This document shows positions 4,661 to 41,095 of a stretch of DNA of 64,000 nt, one piece after another. The stretch covers positions 2,976,001-3,040,000 of the forward strand of contig NZ_CP150144.1 of the NCBI RefSeq assembly GCF_037963145.1, in the 5' to 3' direction. The notes below the pieces were generated by a model. It was not told the DNA's origin, searched no databases, and was given only the letters and a program-made list of their open reading frames with translations. This stretch comes from Oceanobacillus sp. FSL K6-2867 (GTDB taxonomy: Bacteria > Bacillota > Bacilli > Bacillales > Amphibacillaceae). The number at the start of each line of letters is the position of its first letter. Within the stretch, counting starts at the first letter, position 1. The position numbers and the translations under genes were made by a program.

Positions 4661-5514
4661 TGTTCGTAAAAGTTCTGGGGACTGCGCAAGACGCAGGAGT
4701 TCCCCACCCAAATTGCTTTTGTGAAAACTGTGAGCAAGCAAGGCAGGATAAAAATTATCGCCGTCTCGCTGCATCGCTATCATTGCATTTTGAGGAAAGT
4801 AATAAGTGGTATATGATCGACCCATCACCAGATTTTAAAGAACAGCTTATGATGGTCCAGCAGCAAAAGCAATGGAGAAAAATGATGGATGGCATTTTTC
4901 TTACACATGCACATATTGGACACTACACAGGTCTGATGTTTCTAGGAAAAGAAGCAGTTTCTACTCACAAGCTGCCTGTTATGGCAGGGGAAAAGATGAA
5001 CGATTTTCTATCCTCTCATTATCCGTGGAAGCAGTTAATTGATTTTAACAATATTGATTTGCACCCATTACAAGCAGGACAAGCTTATGAATTGCCGGAG
5101 GGTGCAAGTATTATTCCACTATCTGTCCCACATCGCAATGAGTTTTCCGAGACGTTTTGCTTCCTTATACAAGGTCCACAAAAACGATTGCTGTATATTC
5201 CAGATATCGACAGATGGGAACAATGGAATATAAAACTCGATGAACTAATGAAAGACATCGACTACTGCTTCATTGATGGGACATTTTACTCGGTTGCAGA
5301 ATTTGAACAGATTGGGCGATCGTATCATGATATTCCCCATCCATTAATAACCGTCTCAATGGAAAAGTTTAAAGCCTATAAAAATAGCTGCAATATCTAT
5401 TTCACCCACTTCAACCACTCCAATCCCGTAATAGGTTTGGATAAAAAATATAGAGAATTAATTGAAACAGCTGGATTTTTTGTATTGGAGGATGGACAGG
5501 AGTTTTATTTGTAG
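4660..5514 (+). CDS. PqqB-like MBL-fold metallo-hydrolase
   Basis: A cytoplasmic metallo-beta-lactamase-fold protein of 284 residues resembling PqqB. An N-terminal Cys cluster (NCFCENC, Cys19/21/24) matches the zinc-knuckle position of PqqB. The metal motif is THAHIGHYTG (His83, His85, His88), with further ligands likely in DIDRW, DGTFYS and HFNHSNP. PqqB acts in pyrroloquinoline quinone biosynthesis, but no pqqA, pqqC, pqqD or pqqE lies nearby, so a PQQ role is not supported. The start codon overlaps the nhaC stop by one base and uses AAAGGAGAA. The tight pairing with an antiporter suggests a linked but unknown role. Confidence 0.8.
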   Translation: MFVKVLGTAQDAGVPHPNCFCENCEQARQDKNYRRLAASLSLHFEESNKWYMIDPSPDFKEQLMMVQQQKQWRKMMDGIFLTHAHIGHYTGLMFLGKEAVSTHKLPVMAGEKMNDFLSSHYPWKQLIDFNNIDLHPLQAGQAYELPEGASIIPLSVPHRNEFSETFCFLIQGPQKRLLYIPDIDRWEQWNIKLDELMKDIDYCFIDGTFYSVAEFEQIGRSYHDIPHPLITVSMEKFKAYKNSCNIYFTHFNHSNPVIGLDKKYRELIETAGFFVLEDGQEFYL

Positions 5515-5522
5515 GATTTTAT

Positions 5523-5558
5523 AAAGAGGGATAGAACTTGGATGTTCTATCCCTTTTA
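5523..5558 (+). terminator. Terminator of the nhaC-hydrolase operon
   Basis: A perfect 11-bp core stem (AGGGATAGAAC / GTTCTATCCCT, loop TTGGAT) flanked by A and T runs lies nine bases after the stop. Confidence 0.85.
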
Positions 5559-5568
5559 ATGTGCACTG

Positions 5569-5820
5569 CCTCAGGCCGAAACAGCACCACGGCCAGAGAA
5601 AACAGCACTACCCCGGGCCGAAACAGCACCACCCAGCCAAGAAACAGCACCATCCCGGGCCGAAACAGCACCACCTCGGGCCAAAACAGCACCACCCCGG
5701 GCCGAAACAGCACCACGGCCAGAGAAAACAGCACCATGGAGCCAAGGAACAGCACCACCCCCGTCCAAAACAGCACCATCAATCCAAGAAACAGCACCCT
5801 CCCCGGCCAAAACACCATCC
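5569..5820. repeat. Phased 21-bp repeat array, copy 1
   Basis: Eleven cores of AACAGCACCA (last ones degenerate) start at 5580 and recur every 21 bases to 5790, with a broken twelfth at 5811. Each core is preceded by an 11-base segment drawn from a few types such as CCCCGGGCCGA, CGGCCAGAGAA and CCCAGCCAAGA. There is no indel in the register. The array is much more GC-rich than its surroundings and lies between a terminator and the next promoter, so it may not be transcribed. A second array of the same family is at 39516-39956. Confidence 0.9.
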
Positions 5821-5835
5821 CCCTAAAGCCAATCT

Positions 5836-5865
5836 TTGATTTCTCCCCCAAATCATGTATACAAT
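5836..5865 (+). promoter_or_regulatory. Promoter candidate for yojN
   Basis: TTGATT at 5836-5841 and TACAAT at 5860-5865 are spaced by 18 bases, directly after the repeat array and ahead of the AGGAAGGAG ribosome site. Confidence 0.5.
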
Positions 5866-23539: not shown

Positions 23540-23667
23540 CAATATAAAAAACGTTCGGTGCTGTAACACCAAACGGTTCGCAATAGCAAAGGCTCCCTGC
23601 AAGGGGGGCAGCGATTGGCAGAAGTAATCCACCAGAGCCGTTAACTCAAGGGTGGATTATTTTTTTG
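23540..23667 (+). ncRNA. Candidate antitoxin RNA (RatA-like position)
   Basis: A plus-strand RNA is inferred from the strong terminator at 23626-23667, which lies inside the three-prime end of the minus-strand toxin gene. A TACAAT box near 23537 could be its -10. Convergent overlap of the three-prime ends matches the TxpA/RatA arrangement of Bacillus. The five-prime end is a guess. Confidence 0.4.
23626..23667 (+). terminator. Terminator inside the toxin three-prime end
   Basis: AATCCACC / GGTGGATT closes an 17-base loop and is followed by ATTTTTTT on the plus strand. Confidence 0.65.
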
Positions 23668-23740
23668 GGTTACATGACAGCACTGCAACAATTAAACTTG
23701 AAAAAGCTACAGCGAACATAATTGTTTCAAAAACTGTCAT
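23657..23740 (-). CDS. Putative type I toxin (TxpA/BsrG-like, holin-like)
   Basis: A 27-residue hydrophobic peptide, MTVFETIMFAVAFSSLIVAV plus LSCNPKK. The MTVFET start, a single membrane helix and a Lys-rich end are hallmarks of the Bacillus putative holin-like toxins that depolarise or damage the membrane when unopposed. It is preceded on the minus strand by a purine-rich site (AGGAGAGGGGTG). A candidate antisense RNA converges on its end. It is slightly shorter than classic members (about 30-40 residues) and could be a decayed copy. Confidence 0.65.
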   Translation of the reverse strand: MTVFETIMFAVAFSSLIVAVLSCNPKK

Positions 23741-23874
23741 ACAGCAGCACCCCTCTCCTGCTGGGAGTGAGCTGACCACCCTTAAGAAATCCTATACTAT
23801 TGCTATGTTTTATTTAGATCTATATAGACGATAAAATAAATACTTATACTACAACCCCAAAAGGACTGATACAA

Positions 23875-38560: not shown

Positions 38561-39508
38561 ATGATTATTAGGAAGCGGATGAAACCTTTGATACTTCGTA
38601 AATATGAAATACTCCGCACACGCTTAAAAAGAGATTTTACTGGATTTCAACAGATTGAGAGAGAATATGGAAAATACCTGAAAGGCTACATGGGTGAGGT
38701 AAAGGTCGATTATTACCTGCAATTTCTGGAGCCAATGTCTACGATTCTCCAGGATGTCTGCTTAAAAGTCGACGGGACAAGTGTTCAGCTAGATAATATT
38801 ATCATTTCGCAGCACGCAATTTATATTGTGGAAGTGAAGAACTACAGTGGCACAATTATTTTTGATACAGCACTTAACCAGTTTATTCGGGATGATAGCA
38901 GGAAGGAGACAGGATTTAGTCACCCAATTGCCCAGACAGAGCTGCAAAAACTGAAACTTCAAAACTGGCTTCATCATCACGGATTCGCCAACATTCCCAT
39001 TTATACTTTCATCGCAATAAGCGAACCTTCAACCGTAATAAAAGTTCTTGGAGACACAGAGCCAATAGCTAAAGTAGCTGTCCATGGTGAACGAATTCCC
39101 CACATCATACTAAACATTGAAAAACAGCTTGAGCACACGAATAAATTCATGCATCAAAAAATTGGACATGCCATAGCAAGGAAATGCATCGATTTTGATA
39201 AGGAAATTATAAAAGAGCATGGAATTAAAAGAGAGGATATCATGAACGGTGTAAAGTGCACAAACTGTAATATGCTAGGAATGAAGCGAATCCCCAAAAG
39301 CTGGCAGTGCCCAAAATGCAATCATAAAGACCAACGCGCACATTACCAGACGATAAATGAATATTTATTCCTGTTCCCCTGGATAACAAATAAAGAATGT
39401 AAAAACTTCCTCCAAGTAGACTCCCGGCATATGGTATCCAAAACATTAAAGAACGCGAACCTAACCTACGACCCAACACATAAAAGATGGATGGCTATAA
39501 GGAAATGA
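38561..39508 (+). CDS. NERD-domain protein with zinc ribbon
   Basis: A cytoplasmic protein of 315 residues. Residues about 35-150 form a NERD (nuclease-related) domain. Its start is EYGKYLKGYMGEVKVDYYL, its catalytic-type core is LDNIIISQHAIYIVEVKNY (Asp, Glu and Lys of the PD-(D/E)xK fold), and it ends GFSHPIAQTELQKLKL. A four-Cys zinc ribbon follows (CTNCNM and CPKCNHK near 230-250), then a C-terminal basic region. NERD proteins are predicted nucleases or nucleic-acid processing factors. The start ATG follows AAGGAGGAGAGGGGGAGCAGG. The gene has no terminator before the repeat array. Confidence 0.85.
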   Translation: MIIRKRMKPLILRKYEILRTRLKRDFTGFQQIEREYGKYLKGYMGEVKVDYYLQFLEPMSTILQDVCLKVDGTSVQLDNIIISQHAIYIVEVKNYSGTIIFDTALNQFIRDDSRKETGFSHPIAQTELQKLKLQNWLHHHGFANIPIYTFIAISEPSTVIKVLGDTEPIAKVAVHGERIPHIILNIEKQLEHTNKFMHQKIGHAIARKCIDFDKEIIKEHGIKREDIMNGVKCTNCNMLGMKRIPKSWQCPKCNHKDQRAHYQTINEYLFLFPWITNKECKNFLQVDSRHMVSKTLKNANLTYDPTHKRWMAIRK

Positions 39509-39515
39509 ACTACTG

Positions 39516-39956
39516 TTCAATCTAGATTCAGCACCACTGACCGAAAAAACAGCACCATCCCGGGCCGAAATAGCACCACCGCCCAAGCAAACAGCACCAT
39601 CCCGGGCCGAAACAGCACCACCGCCCAAGAAAACAGCACCATCCCTGGCCGAAATAGCACCACCGCCCAAGCAAACAGCACCATCCCGGGCCGAAACAGC
39701 ACCACCGCCCAAGAAAACAGCACCATCCCTGGCCGAAATAGCACCACCGCCCAAGCAAACAGCACCATCCCCGGCCGAAACAGCACCACCGCTCAAGAAA
39801 ACAGCACCATCCCAGGCTGAAGTAGCACCACGGTCCAAGAAAACCGCACCATCCCGGGCCGAAACAGCACCATCACCCAAGAAAACCGCACCATCCCGGG
39901 CCGAAACAGCACCACCGCCCAAGAAAACCGCACCATCCCAGACCAAAACAGCACCA
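39516..39956. repeat. Phased 21-bp repeat array, copy 2 with higher-order structure
   Basis: Twenty-one cores of AACAGCACCA type start at 39527 and recur every 21 bases to 39947 without any indel. The 11-base segments alternate between TCCCGGGCCGA-like and CCGCCCAAGAA-like forms. This gives a 42-bp period, and for several cycles an 84-bp period (AATAG then AACAG cores, and GCA then GAA ends). Early and late units are more degenerate. It is GC-rich against AT-rich flanks and directly follows the NERD stop. Confidence 0.92.
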
Positions 39957-39969
39957 ACACCAAACAAAA

Positions 39970-39998
39970 AAACTCCAGCCCATGCTGGAGTTTTCCTA
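39970..39998. terminator. Bidirectional terminator
   Basis: A perfect 10-bp stem AAACTCCAGC / GCTGGAGTTT with loop CCAT. A/T runs on both sides end the LysM gene from the minus strand and any read-through of the array from the plus strand. Confidence 0.85.
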
Positions 39999-40015: not shown

Positions 40016-41095
40016 CTAGTAAAAACGTTTAAAGCTATCGAAATGTTTCTTCCAATATGAGTTGTCTAGGCTTGTAATGGTTACACCCGTTGATGTTCCT
40101 GCGTGAATAAATTGGTTGTTTCCGAGATAGATTCCCATGTGAGAAATACCTGATCTATATGTACCTGAAAAGAATACTAGGTCTCCTACTTGTGGAGTGT
40201 TCACGTAATAGGAACGGTCGAAATAGCCATCAGTAGAAGTTCGAGATATGTTCATTCCAGCTTGTTTATATACGTAGTAGATAAAGCCGCTGCAGTCGAA
40301 TCCGCTTGGTGTAGCACCGCCCCATACATATTTAATGCCGCTCATGCTTTTAGCTGAGCTGATAAGCTTGTCTACATTGTAGCTGACATTAGCTGATGGT
40401 GCTTTGCTTGAACTTGAACTGCTTGAACTACTGCTGCTGCTTGAGCTTGATCCGGAAGATGCTTTGCCGTTAATGCTTAGCTTTTGGCCGATTAAAATTA
40501 GATCAGAGCTTAAGTTGTTCCATTTCTTCAAGTTGCTGACTGAAACACCGTGCAATGAAGCGATACGTGATAGTGTGTCGCCTGACTTAACTGTGTAAAC
40601 AGAAGATGAGCTGGATGAACTAGACCCAGAAGAGCTTGATCCTGAAGTTGATGATCCAGTAGACGTTCCGCTTTTACTTACAGCCAGCTTATTCCCTGGG
40701 TAAATTAAGGTTGTGTTTAAGTTGTTCCATTTCATCAAGTTAGATAGTGAGATTCCATGCTTGGAGGCGATGCCGCTTAATGTATCTCCTCGTTTTACTG
40801 TATATGTAGATTTATTTGTGGAAGTTTGTTTTTTGCTTGTATTCGTACTTGATGATCCCGTGCTCGAAGAAGATTTCGTAGTCTGAATCACTTGATTCGG
40901 GAAAATTAAATCTGATGACAAATTATTAATCGATCTCAGTTCAGATACGTTTGTACCATATTGCTGTGCAATCTTCCATAGTGAATCTCCACTCTTAACC
41001 TTGTGTGATGCTGCTTCTGCTTCTTCAGCTGCAAAAATAGCTGATGCAATCGCCGCACTTGCAGTAACCGACATAACAATTTTCTTATTTGCCAA
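40016..41095 (-). CDS. LysM (x3) - NlpC/P60 cell-wall endopeptidase
   Basis: A secreted D,L-endopeptidase of the LytE/CwlS type, 359 residues, starting at TTG 41095 after AGGGGG. A signal peptide (cleavage near AEA-A) is followed by three LysM domains (each ending like SDLIFPNQ, TTLIYPGNKL, SDLILIGQKL). These are separated by Ser/Thr-rich linkers, including an almost pure Ser stretch. The C-terminal NlpC/P60 domain has the catalytic Cys in GFDCSGFIYYVY, His in ISHMGIYLG and the third polar residue in QFIHAG. It cleaves peptidoglycan stem peptides. Regulation by WalR is suggested by a box at 41278. Confidence 0.93.
   Translation of the reverse strand: MANKKIVMSVTASAAIASAIFAAEEAEAASHKVKSGDSLWKIAQQYGTNVSELRSINNLSSDLIFPNQVIQTTKSSSSTGSSSTNTSKKQTSTNKSTYTVKRGDTLSGIASKHGISLSNLMKWNNLNTTLIYPGNKLAVSKSGTSTGSSTSGSSSSGSSSSSSSSVYTVKSGDTLSRIASLHGVSVSNLKKWNNLSSDLILIGQKLSINGKASSGSSSSSSSSSSSSSSSKAPSANVSYNVDKLISSAKSMSGIKYVWGGATPSGFDCSGFIYYVYKQAGMNISRTSTDGYFDRSYYVNTPQVGDLVFFSGTYRSGISHMGIYLGNNQFIHAGTSTGVTITSLDNSYWKKHFDSFKRFY

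Follow-up and report, generated by a model that had tools for sequence, protein, structure and literature searches.

A 21-bp tandem array beside a NERD-domain gene of Oceanobacillus is one locus of a genome-wide satellite whose orientation largely follows replication

Introduction

What kind of DNA is a long, regular array of 21-bp repeats between two convergent genes of an Oceanobacillus chromosome, and does its arrangement say anything about its role? The array lies at 39527..39967 (+ strand) of the 64-kb stretch analysed here (the window), which belongs to a genome of 4.40 Mb in one contig (G000). Satellites of constant unit size, 20-21 nt, are described in Bacillus; in the accessible text of that study they are species-specific, have a common short core and have no known function (PMC8161180). 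A nucleoid protein or small RNAs were put forward by its authors, who also remarked that 21 nt corresponds to two helical turns (Subirana & Messeguer, IJMS 2021). We analysed the structure of the array, its relatives in the same and other genomes, and its orientation relative to genes and replication.

Results

Structure of the array and its neighbourhood

We cut the array every 21 bp starting at 39527, which gave 21 units, each made of a core, AACAGCACCA, and an 11-bp spacer. The first-pass annotation had described 21 cores in exact 21-bp phase, and the aligned units bear this out (39527-39956): GCACCA is identical in all 21, while the first core and the core at 39821 each have two mismatches to AACAGCACCA. 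Core identity remained at 0.91-0.96 at lags of one to eight units. Spacer identity, on the other hand, was 0.29 at lag 1, 0.83 at lag 2 and 0.86 at lag 4, and the lag-2 and lag-4 values were reached by none of 5000 shuffles of unit order. The 42-bp alternation of two spacer types, which the annotation had also noticed, is therefore real. Whole-unit identity at lag 4 was reached in 3 of 5000 shuffles performed within odd and within even units, and thus the suggested 84-bp cycle of four units, repeated about three times, exists in addition to the 42-bp one (blocks at 39548-39631, 39632-39715 and 39716-39799, + strand). In agreement, Tandem Repeats Finder (TRF) reported a period of 42 bp with 10.2 copies, 89% matches, 0% indels and a score of 660. 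The edges are more degenerate, as proposed: relative to its own class consensus the first unit has two core and four spacer mismatches and the final two units have three and four spacer mismatches, while the left-central units show lower divergence, which is compatible with a younger age of central units. The unit-lag analysis thus supports a higher-order repeat that expanded by blocks of 42 or 84 bp.

The array lies downstream of, and its core runs on the same strand as, a gene for a 315-aa NERD domain protein (38561..39508, +; PF08378, E 3.3e-18). An intrinsic-terminator-like hairpin (39972-39991) with a T run directly follows the array (39972..39994, +) and has an A run on its other side. 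The convergent neighbour encodes a protein with three LysM stretches and an NlpC/P60 domain (40016..41095, -; PF01476, PF00877). A sister array at 5574..5814 (+) has the same core and mostly different spacers, with spacer TCCCGGGCCGA in common. It is preceded by a terminator-like hairpin (5528..5553, +), placed between the end of the upstream gene at 5514 and the array, and is separated from an AAA-ATPase gene (5888) by a putative promoter, TTGATT-N16-TATACA, identified by eye (5836..5863, +). Allowing one mismatch, AACAGCACCA occurs 39 times in the window (shuffle mean 3.6; none of 100 shuffles reached 39), and 30 of these matches are in the two arrays, 11 in the sister array and 19 in the array at 39527; exact copies are confined to the two.

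At Rfam gathering thresholds the only family listed in the window was BsrG (23553-23803, - strand, 112 bits), an RNA of a type I toxin-antitoxin pair, and the array matched no known RNA family. The window also holds a 243-bp repeat (2186-2633; 1.8 copies, 89%) within an ORF at 2089-2676 that ends in GATGAT-rich short repeats.

A family of arrays in the genome

Among the matches listed, G000 contains 14 arrays with the core (A)AACAGCACCA, all between genes and with mostly different spacers, at about 0.606, 1.121, 1.493, 1.556, 2.225, 2.471, 2.654, 2.680, 2.816, 2.822, 2.969, 2.982, 3.016 and 3.189 Mb. The exact pair AACAGCACCA-N11-AACAGCACCA occurs 70 times (43 forward, 27 reverse; control 0), and a looser pair with up to two mismatches 146 times (reversed-pattern control 0); the 2.680-Mb array came from the looser search. 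We compared units between arrays in the five of 13 arrays that have an unbroken phase and at least four units, cut by phase without a core filter. Over 1465 unit pairs, core identity was 0.94 and spacer identity 0.44, the latter against 0.35 expected from spacer composition, which supports the constraint on the core claimed in the annotation. Exact 11-bp spacers are occasionally common to several arrays, as in two arrays from opposite arms, at 1.12 and 2.82 Mb, and copying between loci therefore also homogenises the family. In 10 of the 13 arrays the period that scores best is close to 42 bp or to a multiple of it, so that growth usually proceeds by steps of two units or more. A constraint on exact phase, also claimed, agrees with the 21-bp phase of the present array and is less well supported elsewhere, because other arrays of the genome show single 18-, 19-, 20- or 43-bp steps, the sister species have 41-bp dimers and further genomes contain 20/40-bp arrays. 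The spacing is therefore about two helical turns and not always 21 bp.

On arms of about 2.2 Mb, none of the 14 arrays is more than 1.47 Mb from the origin (KS test against a uniform distribution, p 0.008; terminus assumed opposite the origin).

Arrays at corresponding sites in related species

The exact AACAGCACCA core pair was absent from all 158 other genomes of the family searched, 27 of them congeners. Among named genomes, in a search from which near relatives were possibly excluded, the exact pair was found in 101 stretches: with overlaps counted, 95 had one match, four had two, L119 had three and L082 nine. The repeats of L082 sit in overlapping ORFs, one of 691 aa. L036, L037, L092, L119 and L124, from genomes outside the family, have two or three overlapping matches. 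A phage or plasmid origin was rejected, since blastn of the array gave no match in phages or plasmids. Viral contigs contained the AACAGCACCA pair in 27 stretches, with a single match each, and no exact pair of the related core AAATCGAGCGA.

Two sister species, G017 and G018, have an array in the gap between the same NERD and LysM genes, built of 41-bp dimers with cores like CTAAAGCACCA and CTAAGACACCA. Downstream of the NERD homologue, G001 (core AAATCGAGCGA) and G013 (core TTTTCGCGCGA) also carry an array, and in G004 a short degenerate stretch was seen there by eye. In total, five G000 loci with both flanking genes matchable are paralleled by an array at the equivalent position in one or both sister species, a number that is not a rate because the compared stretches were fetched for containing arrays or the NERD gene. 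These are the 39527 locus and L137 (both species), L134 (G017), the sister array at 5574 (matched by both genes in G017 and by one in G018) and L140, whose counterpart was matched via the G018 array and whose gap in G000 holds one extra ORF. At each shared site the core of the sister species differs from that of G000. Conversely, the G018 gaps that match two G017 arrays contain none, and an array common to G017 and G018 is missing from the window, where the matching genes are 7.2 kb apart; gain and loss of arrays therefore occur as well. The recurrence of arrays at corresponding places, in separately assembled genomes, argues against the possibility, raised in the annotation as a refuting condition, that the array is an assembly artefact, and we rejected it.

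Spacer descent gave no general signal in corresponding arrays (shared 8-mer index 1.84 for nine corresponding pairs, 1.74 for 225 others), the exception being CCGCCCAAGC at the 39527 locus. The AAATCGAGCGA pair, with at most one mismatch, was present in 13 of 156 family genomes and 6 of 46 genera, and cores are therefore not always limited to one species. TRF found no 20-21- or 40-42-bp array in five 20-kb stretches each of G008, G015, G021 and G027; G008 has one weak 22-bp repeat of 3.0 copies, and G027 one core pair unreported by TRF. A 52-bp array lies about 2 kb from the NERD homologue in G008 (L189:12902-13258), whose sampled stretches hold no 21-bp array. In G002, G020 and G078, 20-21-bp families with different cores occur side by side (L188, L283, L284, L287, L289, L292, L293).

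Orientation relative to replication

In G000 dnaA is at 2.08 Mb, and the seven 16S genes (six on the - strand at 0.47-1.99 Mb, one on the + strand at 3.24 Mb) all point away from it. The core runs in the direction of the fork in 13 of the 14 arrays listed; the one at 3.19 Mb runs against the fork and against its genes. For relatives we read the fork direction off the GC skew of each fetched stretch after masking its arrays, so that in draft genomes it is inferred; genes came from a simple ORF caller, stretches were chosen for certain cores or the NERD gene regardless of strand, and some of the arrays counted are orthologous. Of 91 TRF arrays, 58 had a usable core strand (33 with fewer than three core words, or less than 75% of them on one strand, were left out), and in 48 of these the core strand was the GC-skew strand. 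Agreement was found in 21 of 22 convergent arrays, 22 of 26 tandem with the fork, one of four tandem against it, two of three divergent and two of three at edges. Since neither neighbour sets the strand between convergent genes, the convergent class is the best test. By the mapped origin, its sole exception, with a skew of -0.006, does fit; another G000 case, with a skew of 0.000, was scored as agreeing and is likewise consistent with that origin.

By genome, agreement was 11/13 in G000, 8/9 in G018, 8/9 in G017, 10/10 in G001, 6/7 in G078, 3/3 in G087, 1/1 in G004, 1/1 in G020, 0/4 in G013 and 0/1 in G047. The strand in G013 is internally consistent; its core is near-palindromic and its reading direction was chosen, so that the disagreement vanishes if the core is read the other way. 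We reversed the G013 strand for the terminator and RNA-folding counts and kept it for the comparison of core strand with skew.

A test that does not use the core gave a similar picture. The array's own A-T skew and the local GC skew had the same sign in 81 of 91 arrays and in 65 of the 70 not flagged as coding (13 genomes), with A exceeding T on the leading strand. The 70 arrays are those outside longer ORFs, and the flag also dropped the core-bearing G000 arrays L134 and L138. Agreement was complete (22/22) in arrays not flagged as coding that lack a clear core strand and reached 23 of 24 in convergent ones, against 226 of 381 array-free gaps of at least 100 bp and 26 of 55 convergent array-free gaps. 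The five exceptions are L137 (skew -0.006), L141, the array common to G017 and G018 (two rows) and one array of G047; the common array follows its genes and opposes the fork. Where genes run against the fork, one of four arrays by core strand, or four of seven by A-T skew with coding flags included, follow the fork. Gene strand may therefore contribute, and array-free gaps of all classes lean weakly to the same side. Arrays of G002, G020 and G078 that lack a clear core strand always have the A-over-T strand leading.

Position between genes, terminators and RNA folding

The 55 arrays with two called neighbours comprised 30 tandem, 22 convergent and three divergent cases, compared with 219, 56 and 108 of 383 array-free gaps. 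Arrays are thus rarer in divergent gaps (Fisher p 1e-4) and commoner in convergent ones (p 3e-5). Among 48 arrays whose core is codirectional with the upstream gene, a terminator was located ahead of the array in 22 cases, behind it in three and nowhere in 23. The array at 39527 is one of the three, and the order of NERD stop codon, array and terminator is also found in G017; given this position, the array is probably transcribed.

The sense RNA of the array plus terminator folded like its shuffles (z -0.8), as did the core strand of 13 G000 arrays (mean z -0.4). The opposite strand, read as RNA, folded far better than shuffles in the same 13 arrays (mean z -4.7) and in the array at 39527 (z -6.2). 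Across genomes the folding was limited to the first 260 bases, with 30 shuffles: in eight of nine other genomes neither strand differed much from shuffles, and G013 had low z on both. RNA structure as a shared principle was rejected on this basis. The foldable strand is kept off the lagging template in 42 of 70 arrays (p 0.26), and in 25 of 29 arrays of G000, G017 and G018. Hairpin-dependent slippage as the cause of the polarity is hence not supported over all genomes.

Discussion

The array at 39527 belongs to a satellite that is spread over the genome and is of the known species-specific kind with 20-21-nt units. It and its relatives have the unit size with at least four repeats, apparently code for no peptide repeat, occur as several arrays in species-specific families and contain a short conserved sequence; the BsrG match hints that the host, too, is a Bacillus in the wide sense. 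They resemble the Bacillus satellites, as far as the available text describes them, in the ~21-bp non-coding unit, in the presence of several arrays per genome, in a short signal common to the arrays of a species and in related 40-41-nt forms (PMC8161180). The polarity, the placement at gene ends, the shared sites and the different core at each of these sites go beyond that description. In the accessible text we found no mention of orientation, leading strand, convergent or intergenic location, no replication polarity, no scarcity in divergent gaps and no contrast of kept cores with drifting spacers, and replication is named only in the remark on two helix turns. Titles and abstract openings likewise gave no replication polarity of such repeats, though a J. 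Bacteriol. 2020 paper by the same authors may mention it. The 52-nt Bacillus repeats, in the same partial text, share a constant unit size, a variable sequence and common short signals with the present arrays and differ in unit length, the G008 array being the one 52-bp array seen here.

Other repeats are less similar. REP/BIME elements are intergenic, placed at gene ends and present in many copies, with palindromic 20-40-bp units; our arrays share the location and copy number, whereas their units are direct tandem repeats, show no palindromic unit, and have a core strand that folds no better than shuffles. Plasmid iterons are protein-bound direct repeats of about 21 bp. Our arrays have repeats of this size but are chromosomal and dispersed over 14 sites, and none of eight window proteins scanned has a replication-initiator domain.

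What could such a satellite do? A reading in which each array is a tandem site for a putative sequence-specific factor that acts with fork polarity, and grows by blocks of 42 or 84 bp, is the one we tentatively prefer. A non-functional satellite with fork-biased turnover, in which replication slippage makes the arrays, ectopic exchange spreads them and one orientation survives through turnover dependent on the lagging template, is a real rival, possible though in our view doubtful. It would account for the ~42-bp or multiple periods of most G000 arrays and the 84-bp cycle, for spacers common to arrays of both arms and for a position at gene ends, where insertions are least harmful; fork polarity is also expected from it, because orientation-dependent instability of repeats yields such polarity. 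It leaves unexplained, however, why between-array identity is 94% in the core and 44% in the spacer, and why the unit is nearly constant at 20-21 bp. Its simple form based on the foldable strand fits G000 and the two sister species, yet not the arrays as a whole. Against a factor, 10 of 58 arrays by core strand and five of 70 by A-T skew disagree with the skew, the spacing departs from exactly 21 bp in some arrays and species, and exact spacers are shared between arrays.

It is unlikely that the array works as RNA, be it as part of a 3' untranslated region or as a small RNA. The order of NERD stop codon, array and terminator, the strongly folded opposite strand in G000 and the transcription of the 52-nt repeats of B. 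coagulans, which the accessible text reports (Subirana & Messeguer, PMC8161180), are consistent with this reading; against it, the terminator far more often precedes an array than follows it, the sister array is flanked by a terminator-like hairpin on one side and a promoter-like site on the other, and neither the sense RNA nor most other genomes depart from shuffles. We consider it very improbable that the core is a Chi-like recombination signal or an FtsK/SpoIIIE-like translocase signal clustered in arrays. Such signals are fork-polar and vary between species, but they are scattered through genes, whereas exact cores in the window are found only in the two arrays, and the core is unlike the Bacillus signals AGCGG and GAGAAGGG. 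A heptapeptide-coding repeat or an assembly artefact is scarcely credible. A unit length that is a multiple of three, the open frames and a 168-aa ORF on the - strand speak for coding, and the annotation had attributed the openness of both strands to the multiple of three only. That is part of the cause; the T-poor + strand (T 0.07 in G000 arrays) contributes as well, and one + frame of the present array is interrupted by five stops. The same-gap arrays of G017 and G018 have 41-bp periods and five to ten stops in each of the six frames, on which ground we rejected coding, while the recurrence in independent assemblies speaks against an artefact.

We return to a sequence-specific factor acting with fork polarity. 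Cores that are kept while spacers drift over unlinked loci, together with a different core at shared sites, argue that the core is recognised in trans, and the polarity argues that replication is linked either to this recognition or to the renewal of the arrays. The putative binding site would be the core (AAACAGCACCA, 11 bp when the leading A is included), and the factor may load on many such sites about two helical turns apart. It would act with polarity relative to the fork, for example in fork passage, in read-through of head-on transcription or in chromosome organisation. Arrays would grow and renew by exchange of 42- or 84-bp blocks, with units occasionally moving between loci, and changes of the core may spread through the set of arrays as the specificity of the factor drifts. 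A broader form, in which the arrays are a bacterial satellite read by a fast-evolving, replication-polar DNA-binding factor, with sites that outlast species while factor and core change together, is rather unlikely; its logic would be comparable to that of eukaryotic satellites and their binding proteins.

For the constant-size satellites of Bacillus, the literature in its accessible parts offered no testable lead to function. A rule that ties array strand to replication, a position at gene ends, and sites that sister species share and at which their cores differ make that function experimentally approachable, and the direction of the arrays along the copying of the chromosome is a clue to the role of a known but unexplained kind of bacterial DNA.
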